This document shows, piece by piece, positions 1 to 20,702 of a stretch of DNA of 64,000 nt (positions are counted from its first letter, which is position 1; each line of letters begins with the position of its first letter). The DNA comes from an uncultured Methanobrevibacter sp. (lineage in GTDB: Archaea > Methanobacteriota > Methanobacteria > Methanobacteriales > Methanobacteriaceae). The translations under genes and the position numbers were made by a program. The notes under the pieces were generated by a model that was given only the letters and a program-made list of their open reading frames with translations, was not told the DNA's origin and ran no database searches. Location: the NCBI RefSeq assembly GCF_902764455.1, contig NZ_CACWVY010000010.1, positions 2,239 through 66,238 on the forward strand, given 5' to 3'.

Positions 1-1
1 C

Positions 2-796
2 GACATTATTGATTTTAATGCTTCTGAAGGCACCATATATAATGAAACTACTGGTGTTTGGACTATTGGAAACTTGAATAATGGCACAAATGTTACTTTA
101 GTCATTAAATCCATTGCAATAAATGATGGTGATGACATACTTCATAATGTCTCAGTATCCTGTAATGAAACTGAATGGAATTTCACAAACAATAAGGCTG
201 ATATTACCGTTGATGTTGTTATTCTTCCGTATCCGGTAAAAACTGTAAACAATAACACTCCGTATTACAATGATATTATTGAGTATAATTTAACCATTGT
301 TAATATCGGCACTACAGATTATGCTGGTGCTTTGAATGTCACTGACACTTTGCCTGATGGTTTGAAATTTGTTCGTTATGTAGTTAATGGTGCTACTGAG
401 TATGCTCAGTTTGTGAATGTTAATAATCAGACTGTTACATGGTTTATTACAGATATTGCTCGTAAGTCTAATGCTACTATTACTGTTTGGGTTAAAGTAG
501 TTGGACTTGGTGATAATATTATCAGGGACAGTACTTTCATTTCTAATAATGTGACTAGTAATCCTGCTGTTAAGTATGTTGGTAATTTAACCAATAATTT
601 GACTGTTACTGGCCCTAATGGTACTGCTAAGACAGTTAACTGTACTGTTTATCCGGTTCCTATTGTAGATATTTCTGTTAATATTACAAGCGACAAGGAT
701 GAGTACTTTATAGATGATATTGCTGTCTGGACAATAACTGTTTCAAATGCTGGTAATGCTTCTAATCTACTGGTGTTTGGACTATTGGAAACTTGA
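2..796 (+). CDS. Adhesin-like surface protein, left fragment (cut by window edge and by a frameshift)
   Basis: The frame is open from the window edge, so the gene begins outside. The product is Asn/Thr/Val-rich and consists of DUF11-like (TIGR01451-type) beta-sandwich repeats. Characteristic segments are TPYYNDIIEYNLTIVN, NLTNNLTVTGPNG and VDISVNITSDKDEYF, all of which recur many times in the next 6 kb. The frame ends in a nonsense tail (LLVFGLLET, stop at 794-796). The cause is a jump at about position 767 from a repeat segment encoding NASN straight to one encoding TGVWTIGN. Neighbouring units have about 79 nt between these points, so this is an out-of-frame deletion. The sequence continues, one frame over, in the next entry. 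This is one gene broken in place, not a separate gene. Family knowledge: such proteins are exported and anchored at the pseudomurein wall or membrane of Methanobrevibacter, where they probably bind host or microbial surfaces. Confidence 0.85.
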   Translation, partial: DIIDFNASEGTIYNETTGVWTIGNLNNGTNVTLVIKSIAINDGDDILHNVSVSCNETEWNFTNNKADITVDVVILPYPVKTVNNNTPYYNDIIEYNLTIVNIGTTDYAGALNVTDTLPDGLKFVRYVVNGATEYAQFVNVNNQTVTWFITDIARKSNATITVWVKVVGLGDNIIRDSTFISNNVTSNPAVKYVGNLTNNLTVTGPNGTAKTVNCTVYPVPIVDISVNITSDKDEYFIDDIAVWTITVSNAGNASNLLVFGLLET

Positions 797-3700
797 ATAA
801 TGGCACAAATGTTACTTTGGTGATTAATTCCGTTGCTAAACATGAAGGAGATGACATTCCTCATATTGTATCTGTGTCCTGTAATGAAACTGAATGGAAT
901 TTCACTAACAATAAAGCAAACAAACTTGTTGACGTTATTCCTTATCCGGTAAAAACTGTTAATAATGATACTCCTTATTATCATGAAGAGATTGAGTATA
1001 ATTTGACTGTTGTTAATACTGGTGCGGATAATTATACTGATGTTTTAACTGTTATTGATAGTTTACCTGCTGGTTTAGAGTTTGTCAAAACAGTAAATGT
1101 TATTGGTGCTGTTAAAGTTAGTGAAGATAAAAATGGTCAAGTCATTATCTGGAAATTAACTAATATTTCTACTAATAACGCTACTATTGTTGTTAGGGTT
1201 AAAGTTAACAGTTTAGGTAATTTAACTAATAATTTGACTGTTGTTGGTCCTAAAGGCAGTAGCAGAACTGTAAACTGTACAATTAATCCTATGCCTATTG
1301 TAGATTTATCAGTTAACATTACCAGCGACAAAGTTGAATACTTTGTTGATGATGTTGCTGTTTGGACAATAACTGTTCACAATGCTGCTAACGGTACAAA
1401 TGCTTCAAATATTAAGTTGAATGAATTGATTCCTGATGAGTTTGAATATATGTACTGTGACCTTCCGGATGGTACTGTATATAATGAAACTACTGGAGTT
1501 TGGAGCATTCCTGAATTGGCTAACGGTACTGATATTACTTTGAAAATATATTCCCACGCTAAGATTCCTGCAGATGACATTGAAGTTAATGTTAATGTCA
1601 CCTGTGATGAAACAGAGTGGAATATCACTAACAACAAGGATAATATGATTGTTGAGATTGTAGCATTCCATAAACCTGTTAAAACTGTTTCCAACAGTAC
1701 TCCTTATTATCATGAATATGTGAATTTTACAATGACTGTTGAGAATTTAGGTAATTATACATATACCAGTAATTTCACTGTTATTGACACTTTGCCTGCT
1801 GGTTTAGAGTTTATTAGGACTCTCAGCATTAATGGTGCTAAGAATATCAGTGAGGTACATGATGGTCAGAATGTTACTTGGATTTTAACAAATATTCCTG
1901 CTAAGTCCAATGCTACTATCGTTATTCTGGTTAAGGTTAATGCTGTTGGTGATTTGACTAATAATTTAACTGTTATTGGTCCTCGTGGTGCTACTGACAT
2001 GGTTAACTGTACTATTGCTCCTATGCCTATTGTTGATATTTCTGTTAACATTACTAGTGATAAGGATGAGTACTTTGTTGACGATATAGCTGTTTGGACA
2101 GTCACAGTTCACAATGCCGAAAACGGTACCAATGCGACTAATGTTACTTTGAAGGATTTATTCCCATCTGATTATTTCGAATTCATTAATTGCACTTTAC
2201 CGGACGGCACAGTATATAATGAAACAACCGGTGTTTGGACAATCGGAAACTTGGCAAACGGTACTAACGTTACTTTGGTAATCAATTCTCATGTTATACA
2301 AAGTGGAGATGATATTCCTCATAATGTTTCAGCAACATGTAATGAAACAGACTGGAATATGACAAACAATAAAGCTGGTATTACAGTTGATGTTTATGAT
2401 CTCCCATATCCTGTAAAATCCGTTAATAATAATACTCCGTATTACAATGATGTAATTAAGTATAATTTGACTATTGTTAATGATGGTGCTATTGAATATA
2501 CTGATGTCTTGAACGTCACTGACACTTTACCTGATGGTTTAAAATTTGTTGGTTATGTAGTTAAAGATGCTAATGAGGCTGCTAAATATGTAAATGTTAA
2601 TAATCAGACTGTAACCTGGTTTATAACAAATATTGCAGGTAAATCTAAAGCTACAATTACTGTTTGGGTTAAAGTTGTTGGTCTTGGTGATAATATTATC
2701 AGCGACAGTACTTTCATTACTAATAATGTGACTAGAGATCCTGCAGTTAAGTATGTTGGCAATTTAACCAATAATGTGACTGTTACTGGTCCTAATGGAA
2801 TTAACAATACTGACAATTGTACTGTATATCCTATTCCTATTGTTGATATTTCAGTTAATATTACTAGTGATAAGGATGAGTACTTTGTTGATGATGTTGC
2901 TGTTTGGACTATAACTGTTTCAAATGCTGCTAATGCTACTAATGCCACAAATATTAAATTGAATGAATTGATTCCTGATGAATTTGAGTTCATGTACTCT
3001 TCCGATGATGTTGCTTATAACAATGAAACAGGAGTTTGGACCATTCCTGAATTGGCAAATGGTACTGATGTTACTTTAGTGATTTATACTCATGCTAAAG
3101 TTCCTGCAAGTGATATTGAAAATAAAGTTAATGTTACCTGTGATGAAAAAGAGTGGAATTACACTAACAACAAGGATAATATAATTGTTGAGATTGTAGC
3201 GTTCCATAAACCTGTTAAAACTGTTTCCAACAGTACTCCGTATTATCATGAATATGTAAACTATACATTAACTGTTGAGAATTTAGGTAATAATATGTAT
3301 GCCAGCAATTTCACTGTTATTGACAGTTTACCTGCTGGTTTAGAGTTTATTAGGACTCTCAGCATTTCAGGTGCTAAGAATATTAGTGAGGTTCATAATG
3401 GTCAGAATGTTACTTGGATTTTAACCAATATTCCTGCTAAGTCCAATGCTACTATCGTTATCTTGGTTAAAGTTAATGCTGTTGGTGATTTGACTAATAA
3501 TTTAACTGTTGTTGGTCCTCGTAACTCTACAGAAGTAGTTAACTGTACTATTACTGCTGTGCCTATTGTTGATATTTCTGTTAACATTACCAGTGATAAG
3601 GATGAGTACTTTGTTGATGATGTTGCTGTCTGGACTATTACTGTAACTAATGCTGCTAACGGTACTAATGCTTCAAGTATCAACTTAAGCGAATTGCTTC

Positions 3701-6700
3701 CAGATGAGTTTGAGTATATGTACTGTGATGCTCCTGATGGTACTGTATATAATGAGACTACTGGTGTTTGGAGTATTCCTGACTTGGCTAATGGTACAAA
3801 TGTTACTTTGGTGATTTACGCTCATGCTAAAAATCCTGCTAATGATATTACTAACAAAGTTAATGTGTCCTGTGATGAAAAAGAATGGGATTACGATAAC
3901 AATGATGATAAAAAGACTGTTGATATTATTTCATTTCACAGGCCTGAGAAGACTGTTTCCAACAGTACTCCGTATTATCATGAATATGTGAATTATACAT
4001 TGACACTTGAGAATTTAGGAAATAACATGTACACTAGCAATTTCACTGTTATTGACAGTTTACCTGATGGTTTAGAGTTTATTAAGACTCTCAGTATTAG
4101 TAATGCTAAGAATATCAGTGAAGTTCGTGAAGGTCAAGTAATTACTTGGATTTTAACTGATATTCCTGCTAAGTCTAATGCAACTATCGTTATCTTGGTT
4201 AAAGTTAATGCTGTTGGTGATTTGACTAACAATTTAACTGTCAAAGGTCCTCGTAACTCTACTGACATGGCCAACTGTACTATTGCTCCTATGCCTATTG
4301 TTGATATTTCTGTTAACATTACCAGTGATAAGGATGAGTACTTTGTTGATGATGTTGCTGTTTGGACTATTACTGTTTCAAATGCCGCTAACGGTACAAA
4401 TGCAACTAATATTAACTTAAAAGATCTGTTCTCACCTGAAAACTTCAAATTGATTAACTGTACTGACAGTAACGGTAAATCTTATGATGTAACCGATGAT
4501 GTATGGATTATTCCTGTAATCGCCAATGGTACAAATATTACATTTACAGTAGAAGCTCTTGCAGTTACTCCTGGAAATAATATTATTGGCACTGCTGAAG
4601 TTAATTGTACTGAAGATGAATGGAATTATGATAACAATAAAGCAATTAAACCAGTTAATATAGTTCCTCTTCCTAAACCTGTAAAAGATGTATCCAACGA
4701 TACCCCATATTACCATGAAGAGATTGAATATAATTTAACTGTTGTTAATGTTGGTAGTGATAATTATATGGATAATTTAACTCTTATTGACAGTTTGCCT
4801 GATGGTTTAGAGTTTATCAAAACCGTTAATGTTATTGGTGCTGTTAAAGTCAGTGAAAATCAAAATGGTCAAGTAATTACCTGGATGTTAACTAATATTA
4901 CTAAAGGTAGTGCTACTATTACTATTTTGGTTAAAGTTAATGCTGTTGGTGATTTAACTAATAATTTAACTGTTGTTGGACCTAAAGGCAATAGCACTAC
5001 TGTAAACTGTACTATTACTGCTGTGCCTATTGTTGATATTTCTGTTAATATTACTAGTGATAAGGATGAGTACTTTGTTGATGATGTTGCTGTTTGGACT
5101 ATTACTGTTTCAAATGCTGCTAACGCTACAAATGCTTCTGATGTTAAATTAAGCGAATTGATTCCAGATGAGTTTGAATATATGTACTGTGATCTTCCAG
5201 ATGGTACTTCATATAATGAAACTACTGGTGTTTGGACAATCGGAAACTTGACTAATGGTACTGATGTTACTTTAGTGATTTATGCTCATGCTAAAGACCC
5301 AGCAAATGATATTGTTAATGAAGTAAATGCAACCTGTGCTGAAAAAGAATGGAATTACACTAACAACGATGATAAAAAGATTGTTGACATTGTTTCATTC
5401 CATAGGCCTGAGAAAACTGTTTCAAATAGTACTCCTTATTATCATGAGTTTGTTGAGTATACTTTGACTGTTGAGAATTTAGGTAATAATAAGTATATTA
5501 GTGAGTTTGATGTTATTGACTCCTTGCCTGTTGGTTTAGAGTTTAATGGAACTCTTAGTATTGTTGGTGCTGATTTGATTAAGGAAAGTGTTGATGGTCA
5601 AGTTGTTAAATGGGCTATTACTAATATTTCTGCTAAGTCTAATGCTACTATTGTTATTAGGGTTAAGGTTAATGCTGTTGGTGATTTGACTAATAATTTA
5701 ACTGTTGTTGGTCCTCGTGGTGCTACTGATATGGTTAACTGTACTATTACTCCTGTTCCTTTAGTTGATATTTCTGTTAATATTACTAGTGATAAGGATG
5801 AGTATTTCGTTGATGATGTTGCTGTTTGGACCATTACTGTTTCAAATGCTGCTAACGGTACTAACGCTTCTAACATTAAGTTGAGTGAATTGCTTCCTGA
5901 TGAGTTTGAATTTATCAACTGTACTGTTACTGGCGGTACTTATGATGATGAAACTGGTGTTTGGAGTATTCCTGAATTGGCTAATGGAACTAATGTGACT
6001 TTAGTCATTAATTCTCGTGCTAAGACTCCTGCTGATGATATTACTAACAAAGTTAATGCTTCATGTGATGAGAAAGAATGGGATTACTATAATAATGATG
6101 CAGTTAAATCTGTAGGTATTGTTCCTCTTCCACAGCCTGTTAAAACTGTTAATAATGATACTCCTTATTATCATGATGTGATTGAGTGTGAAAATCAAAA
6201 TGGTCAAGTGATTACCTGGGTTTTAACTAATATTGCTAAAGGTAGTGCTGCTATCGTTGTTAAGGTTAAAGTTAATGCTGTTGGTGATTTGACTAATAAT
6301 TTAACTGTTGTTGGTCCTAATGGTACTAGTAAGACTGTTAATGAGACTGTTTATCCTGTTCCTTTAGTGGATATTTCTGTTAATATTACTAGTGATAAGG
6401 ATGAGTATTTCGTTGATGATGTTGCTGTTTGGACTGTAATTGTATCCAATGCAGGCAATGGTACTAACGCTTCAAATATCAAGTTGAGTGAATTGCTTCC
6501 TGATGAGTTTGAATTTATCAACTGTACTGTTACTGGTGGTACTTATGATGATGAAACTGGTGTTTGGAGTATTCCTGAATTGGCTAATGGAACTAATGTG
6601 ACTTTAGTCATTAATTCCCGTGCTGTAACTCCTGCAAATAACATTGTAAATGAAGTTAATGCTTCATGTGATGAGAAAGAGTGGGAGTACAATAATAATG

Positions 6701-6955
6701 ATGCAGTTAAATCTGTAGGTATTGTTCCTCTTCCACAGCCTGTTAAAACTGTTAATAATGATACTCCTTATTATCATGATGTGATTGAGTGGTCAAGTGA
6801 TTACCTGGGTTTTAACTAATATTGCTAAAGGTAGTGCTACTATCGTTGTTAAAGTTAAAGTTAATGCTGTTGGTGATTTAACCAATAATTTAACTATTGT
6901 AGGTCCTCATGGCACTGATGCTACAGTCAACTGTACAATAAAACCAATTCCTATC
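665..6955 (+). repeat. Tandem repeat array of about 730 nt units inside the adhesin gene
   Basis: Taking the codon for the V of VDISVNIT or VDLSVNIT as a marker, copies start at 665, 1300, 2032, 2842, 3568, 4300, 5032, 5764, 6367 and 6956. The spacings are 635, 732, 810, 726, 732, 732, 732, 603 and 589 nt. The standard unit is therefore 726-732 nt. The 810-nt unit carries extra codons (GLGDNIISDSTFITNNVT) that also occur in the partial unit at the left edge. The 635-nt and 589-nt units are not whole-codon variants and mark the two frame changes. The 603-nt unit has lost 129 nt in frame. Confidence 0.9.
793..6819 (+). CDS. Adhesin-like surface protein, central repeat fragment
   Basis: About 2,000 codons of tandem DUF11-like repeats, the continuation of the preceding frame. 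The TTG at 793 is only the first possible codon after the frame change. There is no ribosome-binding site or signal peptide, so it is unlikely to be a true start. Each unit of about 243 residues holds two related beta-sandwich halves. Landmarks are VDISVNITSDKDEYFVDDVA, VWTIPELANGT-type segments, KTVSNSTPYYHEYV and VGDLTNNLTVVGP. Asn-X-Ser/Thr sequons are very frequent, which suggests heavy N-glycosylation. The frame ends in a nonsense tail after HDVIEW because 14 nt are missing relative to the preceding unit; the true continuation is the entry starting at 6785. The protein was probably extracellular and wall-anchored. As the DNA reads, this fragment lacks both an export signal and an anchor. 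Confidence 0.8.
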   Translation: MNNGTNVTLVINSVAKHEGDDIPHIVSVSCNETEWNFTNNKANKLVDVIPYPVKTVNNDTPYYHEEIEYNLTVVNTGADNYTDVLTVIDSLPAGLEFVKTVNVIGAVKVSEDKNGQVIIWKLTNISTNNATIVVRVKVNSLGNLTNNLTVVGPKGSSRTVNCTINPMPIVDLSVNITSDKVEYFVDDVAVWTITVHNAANGTNASNIKLNELIPDEFEYMYCDLPDGTVYNETTGVWSIPELANGTDITLKIYSHAKIPADDIEVNVNVTCDETEWNITNNKDNMIVEIVAFHKPVKTVSNSTPYYHEYVNFTMTVENLGNYTYTSNFTVIDTLPAGLEFIRTLSINGAKNISEVHDGQNVTWILTNIPAKSNATIVILVKVNAVGDLTNNLTVIGPRGATDMVNCTIAPMPIVDISVNITSDKDEYFVDDIAVWTVTVHNAENGTNATNVTLKDLFPSDYFEFINCTLPDGTVYNETTGVWTIGNLANGTNVTLVINSHVIQSGDDIPHNVSATCNETDWNMTNNKAGITVDVYDLPYPVKSVNNNTPYYNDVIKYNLTIVNDGAIEYTDVLNVTDTLPDGLKFVGYVVKDANEAAKYVNVNNQTVTWFITNIAGKSKATITVWVKVVGLGDNIISDSTFITNNVTRDPAVKYVGNLTNNVTVTGPNGINNTDNCTVYPIPIVDISVNITSDKDEYFVDDVAVWTITVSNAANATNATNIKLNELIPDEFEFMYSSDDVAYNNETGVWTIPELANGTDVTLVIYTHAKVPASDIENKVNVTCDEKEWNYTNNKDNIIVEIVAFHKPVKTVSNSTPYYHEYVNYTLTVENLGNNMYASNFTVIDSLPAGLEFIRTLSISGAKNISEVHNGQNVTWILTNIPAKSNATIVILVKVNAVGDLTNNLTVVGPRNSTEVVNCTITAVPIVDISVNITSDKDEYFVDDVAVWTITVTNAANGTNASSINLSELLPDEFEYMYCDAPDGTVYNETTGVWSIPDLANGTNVTLVIYAHAKNPANDITNKVNVSCDEKEWDYDNNDDKKTVDIISFHRPEKTVSNSTPYYHEYVNYTLTLENLGNNMYTSNFTVIDSLPDGLEFIKTLSISNAKNISEVREGQVITWILTDIPAKSNATIVILVKVNAVGDLTNNLTVKGPRNSTDMANCTIAPMPIVDISVNITSDKDEYFVDDVAVWTITVSNAANGTNATNINLKDLFSPENFKLINCTDSNGKSYDVTDDVWIIPVIANGTNITFTVEALAVTPGNNIIGTAEVNCTEDEWNYDNNKAIKPVNIVPLPKPVKDVSNDTPYYHEEIEYNLTVVNVGSDNYMDNLTLIDSLPDGLEFIKTVNVIGAVKVSENQNGQVITWMLTNITKGSATITILVKVNAVGDLTNNLTVVGPKGNSTTVNCTITAVPIVDISVNITSDKDEYFVDDVAVWTITVSNAANATNASDVKLSELIPDEFEYMYCDLPDGTSYNETTGVWTIGNLTNGTDVTLVIYAHAKDPANDIVNEVNATCAEKEWNYTNNDDKKIVDIVSFHRPEKTVSNSTPYYHEFVEYTLTVENLGNNKYISEFDVIDSLPVGLEFNGTLSIVGADLIKESVDGQVVKWAITNISAKSNATIVIRVKVNAVGDLTNNLTVVGPRGATDMVNCTITPVPLVDISVNITSDKDEYFVDDVAVWTITVSNAANGTNASNIKLSELLPDEFEFINCTVTGGTYDDETGVWSIPELANGTNVTLVINSRAKTPADDITNKVNASCDEKEWDYYNNDAVKSVGIVPLPQPVKTVNNDTPYYHDVIECENQNGQVITWVLTNIAKGSAAIVVKVKVNAVGDLTNNLTVVGPNGTSKTVNETVYPVPLVDISVNITSDKDEYFVDDVAVWTVIVSNAGNGTNASNIKLSELLPDEFEFINCTVTGGTYDDETGVWSIPELANGTNVTLVINSRAVTPANNIVNEVNASCDEKEWEYNNNDAVKSVGIVPLPQPVKTVNNDTPYYHDVIEWSSDYLGFN

Positions 6956-8527
6956 GTTGATATTTCAGTAAACATTACTACTGATAAAGAGGAGTATTTC
7001 ATCGATGACATTGCAGTTGTCAACATTACTGTATCCAACAGTCCTGACAGTAACAATGCAACCCAAGTTTCATTAAGCGATTTCATTCCTGATGAATTTG
7101 AATTCGTTGATTGTAATCTATCCAGCGGTACTTTTGATCCTGTCAGTAAGGTTTGGTTTATTGGTGACTTGGAAAACGGCACTCAAGTATCTTTAGTATT
7201 GTTCTTACGTGCTAAATCTGTTGGAATAGATATCGATAATGCTGTTGAAGTAAGATGTGGTGAAAAAGAGATAAACTACACTAACAATAGGGATCATAAG
7301 CCTGTTGTGATTGTTCCTCTTCCAGAAATTCAAAAGTCAGTAAACACTACAAGAACCTATAACCACAGGTTCGTAGAATATTACTTGACAGTCAACAATA
7401 CAGGTAATAACAATTACACTAAAAACTTGACAGTTATTGATAATTTGCCTGTTGGTTTGATATTCAGCGGAACCATAAGCATTGAAGGTGCTGACTTGGT
7501 AGTGGAAAATGTAAACGGTCAAAACATTAGTTGGATAATAAATAATATTCCTGCAAAATCCATTGCAGTAATAACCTTGAAGGTCTTTGTAAATGGTACT
7601 GGTGATTTGGTTAACAATTTAACCATTATTGACATTAACGGCAAAAATGACACAGTTAACTGTACAATCACTTCAGATCCAGTAGCAGATTTAGAAATTA
7701 TAAAATTCGTTTCATCTACAATCCCACATAAAAACGATAAAATCATTTGGACAATCATTGTTACTAATAAAGGGCCAAACACTGCTGTAAACACAAAAGT
7801 AACAGATAAATTGCCTTCTGGCTTAATTTATGTCTCAGATGATTCCCTAAATAATTATAATTCTAAATCAGGAATCTGGACTATTGGAGATCTTGCAAAT
7901 GGAGAATCTGCAAAAATCAACATTGTCACTTTGGTTGCAACCACCAACAGGACAATCGTCAATCTTGCAGATGTAACTTCAGACACATATGACCCTAACG
8001 ATACAAACAATCACTGCAACAGTTCAACTACTGTTCCTCCTGAAGCTGATTTGGTTATCACTGTTGAACCTGAAGTTGAAGAGGTCATTGTCGGTGATAA
8101 AGTTGTCATCAAAGTTATAGTCGTAAACAATGGTCCTGATACTGCAGAAAACACTCGTGCATCCATTAAGTTGCCTAAAGGATTGGAACTTTTAGGAGAA
8201 GAAGTATCTAAAGGTACTTATGATCCTGAAACTGGAATCTGGACAATCGGGGATTTAGCTCCTGGAGAAGAGGTTACTCTCATACTTAATACCAGAGCGT
8301 TGGTAAGCGGCAAAGTCATTGTTGAAGCAAGTGTCATCAGTGATACCTTTGACAGCGACCTTTCAAACAACAACGACTCTGCTGAAGTTGAAGTATTGCC
8401 TCCTCAAGAGCAAAATAAAGTTTCAGTAAGTGAAACTCCTAAAATGTATGCTACAGGCAATCCAATCGTAATGGTTCTATTGGCGTTACTTGCAATTGCA
8501 GGCGTAAGTCTAAGAAGAAAAGATTAA
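6785..8527 (+). CDS. Adhesin-like surface protein, C-terminal fragment with membrane anchor
   Basis: In-frame C-terminal part of the same broken gene; the TTG at 6785 is not a convincing start. It begins in the middle of a repeat (GQVITWVLTNIAKGSATIVV). It carries about two more divergent units, then two more typical DUF11 domains (roughly residues 300-420 and 420-535, beginning PVADLEIIKFV and PEADLVITVEP). It ends in a short charged linker, the hydrophobic segment NPIVMVLLALLAIAGVSL and a basic RRKD tail, a typical C-terminal membrane anchor of methanogen adhesin-like proteins. The repeats diverge towards this end, whereas the central units are nearly identical. That fits homogenisation by recombination in the centre and conservation of the anchor. 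A palindromic terminator follows. Confidence 0.85.
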   Translation: MSGQVITWVLTNIAKGSATIVVKVKVNAVGDLTNNLTIVGPHGTDATVNCTIKPIPIVDISVNITTDKEEYFIDDIAVVNITVSNSPDSNNATQVSLSDFIPDEFEFVDCNLSSGTFDPVSKVWFIGDLENGTQVSLVLFLRAKSVGIDIDNAVEVRCGEKEINYTNNRDHKPVVIVPLPEIQKSVNTTRTYNHRFVEYYLTVNNTGNNNYTKNLTVIDNLPVGLIFSGTISIEGADLVVENVNGQNISWIINNIPAKSIAVITLKVFVNGTGDLVNNLTIIDINGKNDTVNCTITSDPVADLEIIKFVSSTIPHKNDKIIWTIIVTNKGPNTAVNTKVTDKLPSGLIYVSDDSLNNYNSKSGIWTIGDLANGESAKINIVTLVATTNRTIVNLADVTSDTYDPNDTNNHCNSSTTVPPEADLVITVEPEVEEVIVGDKVVIKVIVVNNGPDTAENTRASIKLPKGLELLGEEVSKGTYDPETGIWTIGDLAPGEEVTLILNTRALVSGKVIVEASVISDTFDSDLSNNNDSAEVEVLPPQEQNKVSVSETPKMYATGNPIVMVLLALLAIAGVSLRRKD

Positions 8528-8802: not shown

Positions 8803-10452
8803 ATGAAAAGTGATAGTATTAAAAAAGGAATTCAAAGAGCTCCCCACAGATCTCTTTTAAGAGCATGCGGACTTGAAGATGATGACTTTAAAAAACCGTT
8901 TATTGGTATAGCAAACAGTTATACAGATATTGTACCTGGTCACATTCACCTTAAAGCCCTTGTTGAATTTGTAAAAGAAGGAATCATCGCTGCCGGCGGT
9001 ATTCCATTTGAATTTGATACAATGGCAGTTTGTGACGGAATCAGTATGAACCATGAAGGTATGAAATATTCCCTGCCTTCAAGGGAAATCATCGCAGCAA
9101 CAGTTGAAAGTATGACCAAAGGACATGCATTTGACGGACTGGTATTGATTCCAAGCTGTGATAAAGTAGTTCCTGGAATGATTATGGGTGCAGCAAGAGT
9201 TAATGTACCATCAATTGTCGTTACTGGAGGACCTATGGCATCAGGTTCTTATAAGGGCAAACCTGCAGATTTAATCACTGTATTTGAAGCAGTTGGAGCA
9301 TATTCTGCTGGAAAAATGACTGAAGAAGAAGTAAATGAACTTGAAAAATGTGCATGTCCTGGTGCCGGAAGCTGTTCAGGATTATTTACAGCAAACACAA
9401 TGGCATGTATTACCGAAACATTAGGATTATCACTTCCGACCTGTGCAACCACTCATGCTTTAACAGAAGAAAACAACCAGGTTGCATTCGAGTCAGGCAG
9501 ACAGATTATCAAACTGGTTGAAGATGACATTAAACCGTCTGATATTATGACTCAGGAAGCTTTCAACAATGCAATAGCAGTTGATATGGCACTTGGAGGT
9601 TCATCCAATACAGCATTACATATTCCTGCTTTGGCAAGTGAAGTTGAAGGTGTTGATGTTGATTTGGAACTCTTTGATGAAATATCAAGAAAAGTACCTC
9701 ATATCGCATTGATATCTCCTGCAGGTGAAGATTCAATGATGGATTTACATTTGGCCGGTGGTATTCAGGCAGTTCTTAAAACATTAGGAGACAAAATTGA
9801 TACAAATCAGTTAACTGTTACCGGAAAGACTATTGCTGAAAATCTTGAAAATGTTGAAAACAAAAACACTGATGTTATTCGTACATTGGATAATCCTGTA
9901 CATGAAGATGGTGGAATTGCAATTCTTAAAGGTAATCTTGCTCCAAACGGAAGTGTTGTTAAAAAAGGTGCAGTTGCAGATCATTTAATGCATCTTAAAG
10001 GTCCGGCTAAAGTATATAATTCAGAAGAGGATGTAACAAAAGCAATATTTGACCATGAAATCGATGAAGGAGACATTGTTGTAATCAGATATGAAGGACC
10101 TAAAGGTGGACCTGGTATGCGTGAAATGCTCAATCCAACCTCTGCTCTTGCAGGAATGAACATTAAGGATGTCGGATTAATCACTGACGGAAGGTTCTCC
10201 GGAGGAACACGTGGGCCTTGTATAGGACATGTATCTCCTGAAGCCAGAGAAGATGGTCCGATTGCCGCAATAAAAGATGGGGACATTATTGAGATTGACA
10301 TTAACAACAGATTAATTAATGTTGAACTTTCAGATGAAGAAATCGAAGCAAGACTTAAAGATGTCAAACACCCTGAAAGTGATGTTGCAGGATGGTTGGC
10401 ATTGTATCAGAAACTGGTTCACTCAGCAGATACTGGTGCTATATTAAGGTAG
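8803..10452 (+). CDS. ilvD: Dihydroxy-acid dehydratase IlvD
   Basis: Cytosolic Fe-S enzyme that dehydrates 2,3-dihydroxy-isovalerate and dihydroxy-methylvalerate to the 2-oxo acids, the third common step of valine and isoleucine synthesis. At 549 residues it has the usual family length. Visible motifs are [10 protein letters not shown] (38-47), the IlvD/Edd signature [14 protein letters not shown] (117-130), [16 protein letters not shown] (185-200), and near the C-terminus GGPGMREML and [11 protein letters not shown]. Cys77, Cys119 and Cys185/191 are candidate cluster ligands. The ATG follows a GTGAT ribosome-binding site at 8795-8799. Only 7 nt separate its stop from hisD, so the two are probably one transcript. 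The other ilv genes of this pathway lie elsewhere in the window. Confidence 0.96.
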
Positions 10453-10459
10453 TGTTTAA

Positions 10460-11734
10460 ATGGAAATACTTAATTATTCAGAGATTGATTTAACTGAAAC
10501 TATCAAAAGATCAGAAGAAGATGTAAACAAGGTATTAGACATTGTTTCTGACATTTTAAACAATGTTAGAGTAAATAAAGATAATGCTATTAGAGAATAT
10601 ACTGAGAAGTTTGATGGTGTTACAATAGAAAATTTGAAAGTATCCAAAGATGAAATTGAAGAGGCTTATGAAACTTTGGATGATGAATTGCTTGTGGCTT
10701 TAAAGCAAGCGGCAGATAATATTGAAAAATTTCATAAAAGGCAAATTCCATCTGAGTGGGAAATGGAAGTAAATCCAGGTATTGTTGCAGGTCAAATTGT
10801 AAGGCCAATTAACTCTGCCGGATGTTATATCCCTGGAGGTCGTGCGGCTTACCCTTCATCAATATTGATGACAGTAATTCCAGCAAAAATTGCCGGTGTT
10901 AAAAAAGTCGTTTGTGTGACACCTCCACAAAAGGACGGAAAAATTTTAGATGCCATTTTGGTTGCAGCAGATATTGCAGGTGCAGATGAGATATATAAAG
11001 TCGGTGGAGCACAGGCAATTGCAGGTCTTGCATATGGTACCGAGTCAATACCTCGTGTAGAAAAAATTGTCGGTCCGGGTAATATATTCGTTACAGCTGC
11101 AAAAAAATTAGTATATGGTCAAGTAGATATTGAGTTTCCTGCAGGTCCTTCAGAAGTGCTTATATTGGCGGATTCTACTGCAAACCCTGAATTTTTAGCA
11201 ACTGACATATTAGCACAGGCAGAACATGACCCTAATGCTTCATGTTTTTTAGTAACTGATGATGAGGACCTGGCTATTAAGACAGATGAATTTGTCAGGC
11301 AGTTAACCGAGACTGCACCAAGGCGTGAAATTATAGAAGAATCATTATCAAAAAGTGGAAAAATCATTGTCACTAACACTTTTGAGGAAGCAATTTATGT
11401 TACAAATGAATATGCTCCCGAACATTTAATCATATCCACAGCTGATGATGATGAAACATTATCACACATTAAAAATGCCGGTTCAATCTTTTTAGGTGCA
11501 TACTCACCTGTTGCAGCAGGAGATTACGGATCCGGAACAAACCACGTTTTGCCTACAGGAGGCGGTGCTAAAATGTATTCCGGCCTTTCAACTGAAGCAT
11601 TTATTAAAAAGCCTACAGTTCAAAGACTTACTAAAGAGGGTCTTAAGGAGCTTTCAAAAACTTCTGTACCGATTGCGGAATATGAAGGTTTTTTTGCACA
11701 TGCAAATTCATTTAAAACAAGATTAAGAGATTAA
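10460..11734 (+). CDS. hisD: Histidinol dehydrogenase HisD
   Basis: Zinc-dependent NAD enzyme that oxidises L-histidinol in two steps to L-histidine, the last reactions of histidine synthesis. The 424 residues match the family. Motifs include [72 protein letters not shown] (zinc site region), [10 protein letters not shown] and [19 protein letters not shown] near the end. It is probably co-transcribed with ilvD (7-nt gap), an unusual pairing of two amino-acid pathways. hisB is 34 kb away in this window, so the his genes are dispersed here. A stem-loop and T-run follow the stop codon. Confidence 0.96.
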
Positions 11735-19331: not shown

Positions 19332-20702
19332 TCAAACTTCATTTTTCTGATTTTTTATTAATTTATTGATGTAGAGTTCAATACATGCATAACATATTAG
19401 AGAACCGATTCCGCCGCCTAAAAGCATTCCGCAGTAAATTCCGAATTCGCCCATATTGAATGTAAATCCTAAAAGGTATGCAAAAATTAACACAAGTATG
19501 AATTCTCTGAATGCTGTTAGGAAAAATGATATTGTTCCTTTTCCAACACCCTGGAACACATTTCCCGCACTTGCTCCAAAAGGAACGTATAATATGAATA
19601 AGCACATTATCTGCAGGAAATTAGCAATTAATGGGGCCAGTTGTGAACTGGACTCGGAATATGAAAATGCAAGTGCAATCTGATTTGAAAAGACATATAA
19701 TATTATGCAAACGATTATTGAAGCTATCAGAGCTACTTTAACTGCATATCTTGCTACTATTCTTAAGTTTTCGTATTTTTTTGCTCCGAATGCAACTCCT
19801 GAAACTGAAATTGCTGCAGTTCCAACCCCTATTGCCGGAACCATTCCAATGTTAATTATTCTCCAGCCGGCTGTATAGACGGCCACTGATACCGGTCCTG
19901 ACACTATTGTAAGCATGTAGTTTACAAATATTGTTAAAACTGAAAGCACTAACTGTTCTAAGCTTGCCGGAATACCTACAACTAAAATATCCTTATACAT
20001 TCCAAGGTCATTGTGGAAATCTTTACGGTTATAGGAAAGGTATGTGTCCTTTTTGACAAATATCCAGTAAAGCATTACAAGTAAACTTATAAGAGGTCCC
20101 AGTACTGTTGCCAATGCTGCTCCCTTTATTCCCATTCCTAAAAGATAGATGAATATTGGGTCTAGAATCATGTTGATTATTGCAGCCAGAGCTATTGGTA
20201 TTGTTGCTCTTTTGATGTCTCCCTCTGCTCTGAATGCTCCTCCTACGATTGGGGGCATTAAAAGTCCAAATGTTCCAACAAATATGATAAATCCATAGTC
20301 CATTGCATAGTTAATTACACTGCTTGCACCCATCATAATGAGCATAGGCTTCATAAATGCCAGAAAGATTGCTGAGACGACTAATGAAAATATTAAGCTT
20401 AAAATGAGGTTGTGGATTGCGGCATTATTTGCTGAGGCCTTATCTTCTGCACCGATGTATCGTGAAATTAGGGAGTTGCCTCCTGCTCCTATTCCATTTC
20501 CAAATCCGACTAAAATCATAAAAAGTGGAGTAATGTATCCCAGAGCGGCCAAAGGGTCTGCACCTAGTCCTGCTACCCAAATACTGTCAATGATATTATT
20601 TACTAAAATTAAAAACATACTTCCAATGATTGGAAATGACAGTTTGTTGATGGCTTTTTTAGGATCTCCTGTTATCATTTCAATATTTTCAGTTTTTCCC
20701 AT
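19332..20702 (-). CDS. MATE-family multidrug/cation antiporter
   Basis: Integral membrane exporter of 456 residues with about twelve hydrophobic helices in two related halves. The N-terminal half has INKLSFPIIGSMFLILVNN and GADPLAALGYITPLFMI, and then GIGAGGNSLISRYIGAED, the typical MATE loop with Gly-rich and Arg-Tyr residues. The second half repeats the pattern (GPVSVAVYTAGWRIINIGM). It carries cation-driven export of an unknown substrate. The gene stands head-on to the preceding minus-strand reading frame only by a 95-nt gap and precedes the nitroreductase. No clear regulatory site was seen upstream. Confidence 0.9.
   Translation of the reverse strand: MGKTENIEMITGDPKKAINKLSFPIIGSMFLILVNNIIDSIWVAGLGADPLAALGYITPLFMILVGFGNGIGAGGNSLISRYIGAEDKASANNAAIHNLILSLIFSLVVSAIFLAFMKPMLIMMGASSVINYAMDYGFIIFVGTFGLLMPPIVGGAFRAEGDIKRATIPIALAAIINMILDPIFIYLLGMGIKGAALATVLGPLISLLVMLYWIFVKKDTYLSYNRKDFHNDLGMYKDILVVGIPASLEQLVLSVLTIFVNYMLTIVSGPVSVAVYTAGWRIINIGMVPAIGVGTAAISVSGVAFGAKKYENLRIVARYAVKVALIASIIVCIILYVFSNQIALAFSYSESSSQLAPLIANFLQIMCLFILYVPFGASAGNVFQGVGKGTISFFLTAFREFILVLIFAYLLGFTFNMGEFGIYCGMLLGGGIGSLICYACIELYINKLIKNQKNEV

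Follow-up and report, generated by a model that had tools for sequence, protein, structure and literature searches.

At its left end, the stretch of DNA analysed here (the window: 64,000 nucleotides, G000:C10:2239-66238, from a 2.75-Mb draft genome of 85 contigs) carries a giant repeat-bearing surface-protein gene that is read in three successive frames. The locus raises the question of whether this gene was broken in the organism, as a pseudogene or as one state of an antigen switch, or whether it was broken by the assembly.

Reading frames and repeat array

Three consecutive reading frames cover the gene within the window:

2..796, + strand: adhesin frame 1, an ORF with a DUF11 match, open at the window edge and without a start
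793..6819, + strand: adhesin frame 2, an ORF with DUF11 matches and a called length of 2008 aa, with the open frame proper starting at 766
6785..8527, + strand: adhesin frame 3, an ORF with DUF11 matches that holds the last units, more DUF11 domains and a C-terminal hydrophobic anchor-like tail

The scores for DUF11 (PF01345) were 83.5, 752 and 277 bits in fragments 1, 2 and 3 (cut-off 24.6), and tandem DUF11 domains make up most of the length of the adhesin, as is characteristic of a DUF11-type adhesin-like protein. A repeat unit of ~732 nt (~244 aa) is common to all three frames; Tandem Repeats Finder is blind to the array because the unit is longer than its 500-nt period limit. Of the three frames only frame 3 has a hydrophobic anchor-like end (tail ...ATGNPIVMVLLALLAIAGVSLRRKD). 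This tail, a hydrophobic stretch with basic residues after it, is also present in relatives and reads as a membrane anchor. The ORFs, DUF11 matches and tail therefore agree with the preliminary description of three consecutive frames that carry the same repeats and have an anchor only in the last.

The successive units are spaced at 635, 732, 810, 726, 732, 732, 732, 603 and 589 nt. Only 635 and 589 are indivisible by three and both coincide with the frame changes, as had been described before. A third short unit of 603 nt, ~129 nt below normal and absent from the preliminary description, keeps the frame and precedes the second break. The joins within the short units are the following:

766/767, + strand: break J1, an out-of-frame join about 97 nt below the normal unit, placed by spacing (635 vs 732), frame change and flank analysis
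6187/6188, + strand: break J0, the in-frame short unit with spacing 603
6790..6791 (about 6790/6791), + strand: break J2, an out-of-frame join about 143 nt below the normal unit, placed by spacing (589 vs 732) and frame change

The numbers of missing bases (about 97, 129 and 143) were estimated from unit lengths alone. Upstream of the window the adhesin gene runs for a further 2,238 bases up to the start of contig C10, which begins inside it, and a 15-N run lies within the same gene directly before window base 1; as assembled, the gene is in at least four pieces. Neither a start codon nor a signal peptide of the gene was found on contig C10, and the genes of relatives have signal-like starts at the equivalent place. 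The assembled pieces are best read as the 3' portion of a gene that encodes a giant adhesin-like surface protein in a gut methanogen of the Methanobrevibacter type. Its product, with tandem DUF11 units and a C-terminal membrane anchor, would be a long stalk-like adhesin projecting from the cell envelope, a role suggested by its family.

If the shortened units were real and fixed out-of-frame deletions, this strain would carry the gene as a pseudogene, and the broken frames of the assembly would be the direct mark of it. Against this reading, the breaks excepted, there is no stop, no frame change and no other decay in ~3,600 codons, and the closest copies differ mostly at third codon positions (e.g. 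30 of 49 differences over 310 codons). In the sequence, this third-position bias together with the open codons is as expected of a working gene, a record which also spans the time before any recent inactivation.

The 99-base flanks of the breaks

The sequences that border the joins and the N gap share stretches of a fixed length:

668..766, + strand: left flank of J1, an exact match of exactly 99 bases to the left flank of the N gap
1..99, + strand: right edge of the 15-N gap up to the divergence from the J1 right-hand sequence, 47 + 52 bases, the 52 common to the right of J1, read as the end of a k=99 graph edge
6089..6187, + strand: left flank of J0, identical to the left flank of J2 over 99 bases (100 counting the base common to both joins)
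6692..6790, + strand: left flank of J2, identical to the left flank of J0

Beyond 99 bases the left flanks of J1 and of the N gap differ, and the piece to the right of the gap runs for exactly 99 bases from its start until it parts from the right-hand copy at J1. Exact 99-base flank identity hence occurs three times (gap/J1 left, gap/J1 right and J0/J2 left). The 52 bases right of J1 are bases 48-99 right of the N gap, the J1 right flank being without the 47 bases of the right-hand 99-mer that are present after the gap; to the right of J0 and J2, 48-49 shared bases were found, not 99. Within the array the assembly resolves exact repeats as long as 94 bases; longer ones (99-100) occur only at the breaks, and the array has no 101-mer that is present more than once. 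Of the 5,345 positions that no repeat match crosses, just two, J1 and J2, have flanks that both recur elsewhere in the array over at least 49 bases.

The same length was found elsewhere in the genome. In a survey of contig ends, 87 ends were taken, of which 20 were masked and 67 readable, and these were compared with the collected adhesin loci and with the contig ends. Eighteen of the 67 readable ends match another compared piece from the very first base; exactly 99 bases are common with another compared piece at 12 of the 67, and one further end has 98. Furthermore, the first 99 bases of contig C27 are found again in its interior. In a de Bruijn assembly, edges that meet at a branching vertex have k bases in common. 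Since the flanks, the gap and the contig ends repeat 99 bases, they point to a de Bruijn assembly with k=99, and the feature that marks a short-read de Bruijn misassembly, k-sized flank identity with the same k at contig ends, is present at this locus. As judged from the letters themselves, the break edges are almost certainly ends of assembly-graph edges glued together and not deletion endpoints.

The broken frames are thus, with high confidence, an artefact of a short-read assembly at k=99, the adhesin gene probably being one open frame in the organism. Unit stretches that are exactly shared for at least 99 bases would be unresolvable at k=99, and the graph edges would end there. The edge ends would then have been joined directly at J1, J0 and J2 and a fourth place bridged with the 15 Ns, with loss of parts of units, and the disruption of the frame at two of the joins (J1 and J2) would be a chance by-product. 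To account for the short right flanks, the right-hand ends would have to have been trimmed at joining; the reading is weakened at this point, as the right flanks of J0, J2 and J1 are incomplete and trimming must be assumed. The preliminary description had offered a protein either switched off or mis-assembled: with exact 99-base identity bordering the breaks and the N gap and recurring at contig ends, the second half of that statement is strongly supported and the first is not. Assembly artefacts might also have come from a mixture of strains instead of from repeats within one gene, as mixed strains too break assembly graphs; the break flanks, however, match other copies in the same array, so that within-gene repeats suffice, and we regard a strain mixture as an unlikely source of the joins.

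The ilvD locus in relatives and other adhesin genes

The gene that follows the adhesin served as a positional landmark for the comparison with relatives:

8803..10452, + strand: ilvD (dihydroxy-acid dehydratase, a name that we take from sequence knowledge), with full-length matches of 78-95% identity across the genus, in nearly all genomes

The search of genome contigs with ilvD led to named Methanobrevibacter loci, mostly in gut and rumen metagenome genomes, and a scan of genome contigs with the C-terminal fragment of the adhesin gave no match. In the one-contig genome G028 a single frame of 5,183 aa lies upstream of ilvD and extends from a signal-like start to the anchor. Uninterrupted frames of 3,484 aa (G018), 3,426 aa (G023) and 3,010 aa (G017) were found at the same place. 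A contig edge falls in the ilvD-upstream gene in G002, G015, G007, G003 and one contig of G035, and in G025 and G001 the gene is in two frames. The positions of the splits in these drafts are about 7068-7134 of L065 (G025:C17) and about 543-655 of L069 (G001:C13). By analogy with the uninterrupted frames seen in other species, the frame is probably intact in this strain. Several relatives are without a giant gene upstream of ilvD, some have a short one, and the number of units varies widely among relatives.

The absence or shortness of the gene in some relatives would fit a pseudogene in this strain. The break edges, however, lie exactly at k=99 edges that are common to the N gap and the contig ends, and the genes of relatives at the same place are uninterrupted; the earlier reading of real out-of-frame deletions is therefore not upheld, and a fixed loss of the gene appears very improbable. 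The preliminary description had also proposed that the deletions are reversible and that recombination between units turns the anchored protein on and off. A highly repetitive gene is indeed a substrate for inter-unit recombination, and the varying number of units in relatives is in line with it. In-register recombination nevertheless predicts normal unit lengths, whereas here the sequences meet out of register and overlap by 0-1 base. There is no tandem simple repeat at the breaks, and the 99-base edges account for both breaks without mutation. The frame changes show none of the elements that mark a phase-variable gene (simple repeat, recombination site or in-register unit exchange), and phase variation by simple repeat or unit exchange was rejected accordingly. 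A literature search for phase variation in adhesin-like proteins of methanogens found none. With the break edges being graph edges and the relatives' genes uninterrupted, the proposed antigen switch finds no support, and reversible deletions are hardly credible as the cause of the broken frames. Just as implausible is a population in which some cells truly carry the frame-shifted units and recombination between units toggles a giant archaeal adhesin between a truncated and an anchored form.

Contig C7 (L078; G000:C7:1-7103, reverse strand) carries an adhesin frame of 2,367 aa with a signal-like start, which runs off the contig start and is preceded by a gene of 366 aa. The two line up colinearly with the pair of genes that precedes ilvD in G018 and G023, and the C7 adhesin is 64% identical to its G018 and 60% to its G023 counterpart over about 2,365 residues. 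This colinearity suggests that C7 and C10 are neighbours, and the two contigs probably adjoin in the genome. C7 may carry either the 5' part of the C10 adhesin gene or a second adhesin gene in tandem, as in G028 and G025. In G028 (L025/L026; G028:C1, about 2252000-2273296) two giant adhesin genes lie upstream of ilvD as a tandem pair: the one of 5,183 aa is accompanied by another that measures at least 1,464 aa and runs off the contig end.

Other adhesin genes of this genome are interrupted as well. In the DUF11 adhesin gene on contig C58 the frame shifts where about 19 nt are exactly duplicated in tandem (L077 about 11529-11567; G000:C58, about 19528-19566); a further stop lies downstream, and the contig ends inside the gene; the duplication may represent overlapping contig ends left unmerged or may be real. 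On contig C27, which begins inside adhesin repeats, the frame of an adhesin-type gene shifts where ~13 nt are duplicated in tandem (L081 reverse strand about 7995-8022; G000:C27, about 979-1006). Both of these frame breaks sit at short exact tandem duplications and not at 99-base edges. A 7-N run lies inside another adhesin gene (L080 9135-9141; G000:C13, about 71134-71140), and nothing among the collected adhesin loci matches its flanks exactly over 12 or more bases.

Comparison with known systems

Split or short adhesin genes in draft genomes of methanogens can be k-mer artefacts, and a check for flank identity of exactly k at breaks and contig ends reveals such artefacts without reads. Such drafts should go through this check before adhesin pseudogenes are counted or phase variation is claimed from them. 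The locus resembles the repeat misassemblies of short-read assemblers (SPAdes-type, PMC5481147) in having flanks that are identical over exactly k bases, at breaks, scaffold gap and contig ends alike; it differs from a plain k-overlap misassembly in the trimmed right-hand flanks of the joins, where 48-52 of 99 bases are left. What it shares with phase-variable surface proteins (slipped-strand or recombinational) is that a gene for a repeat-bearing surface protein is out of frame in its assembled form, but its breaks lie at edges of the assembly and show neither a simple sequence repeat nor an inverted repeat nor any in-register exchange of units.

The biology itself is ordinary, namely another giant DUF11 adhesin-like protein of a gut methanogen. 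Adhesin-like proteins (ALPs) of Methanobrevibacter and Methanosphaera bear DUF11 (PF01345) and "archaeal big domain" stalks (PMC11532034, PMC2812497, PMC4987999), occur in many copies per genome and reach up to 7,805 aa. As a protein of the latter size was reported in M. millerae SM9 (PMC4987999), the giant size of the present gene is normal. Only in being broken in this assembly, with its N-terminus absent from the contig, does it depart from the known ALPs; by its sequence the gene is that of an ordinary giant adhesin-like protein of the Methanobrevibacter type, which it resembles as a giant secreted protein with tandem Ig-like repeats assigned to DUF11 and a hydrophobic anchor at one end.
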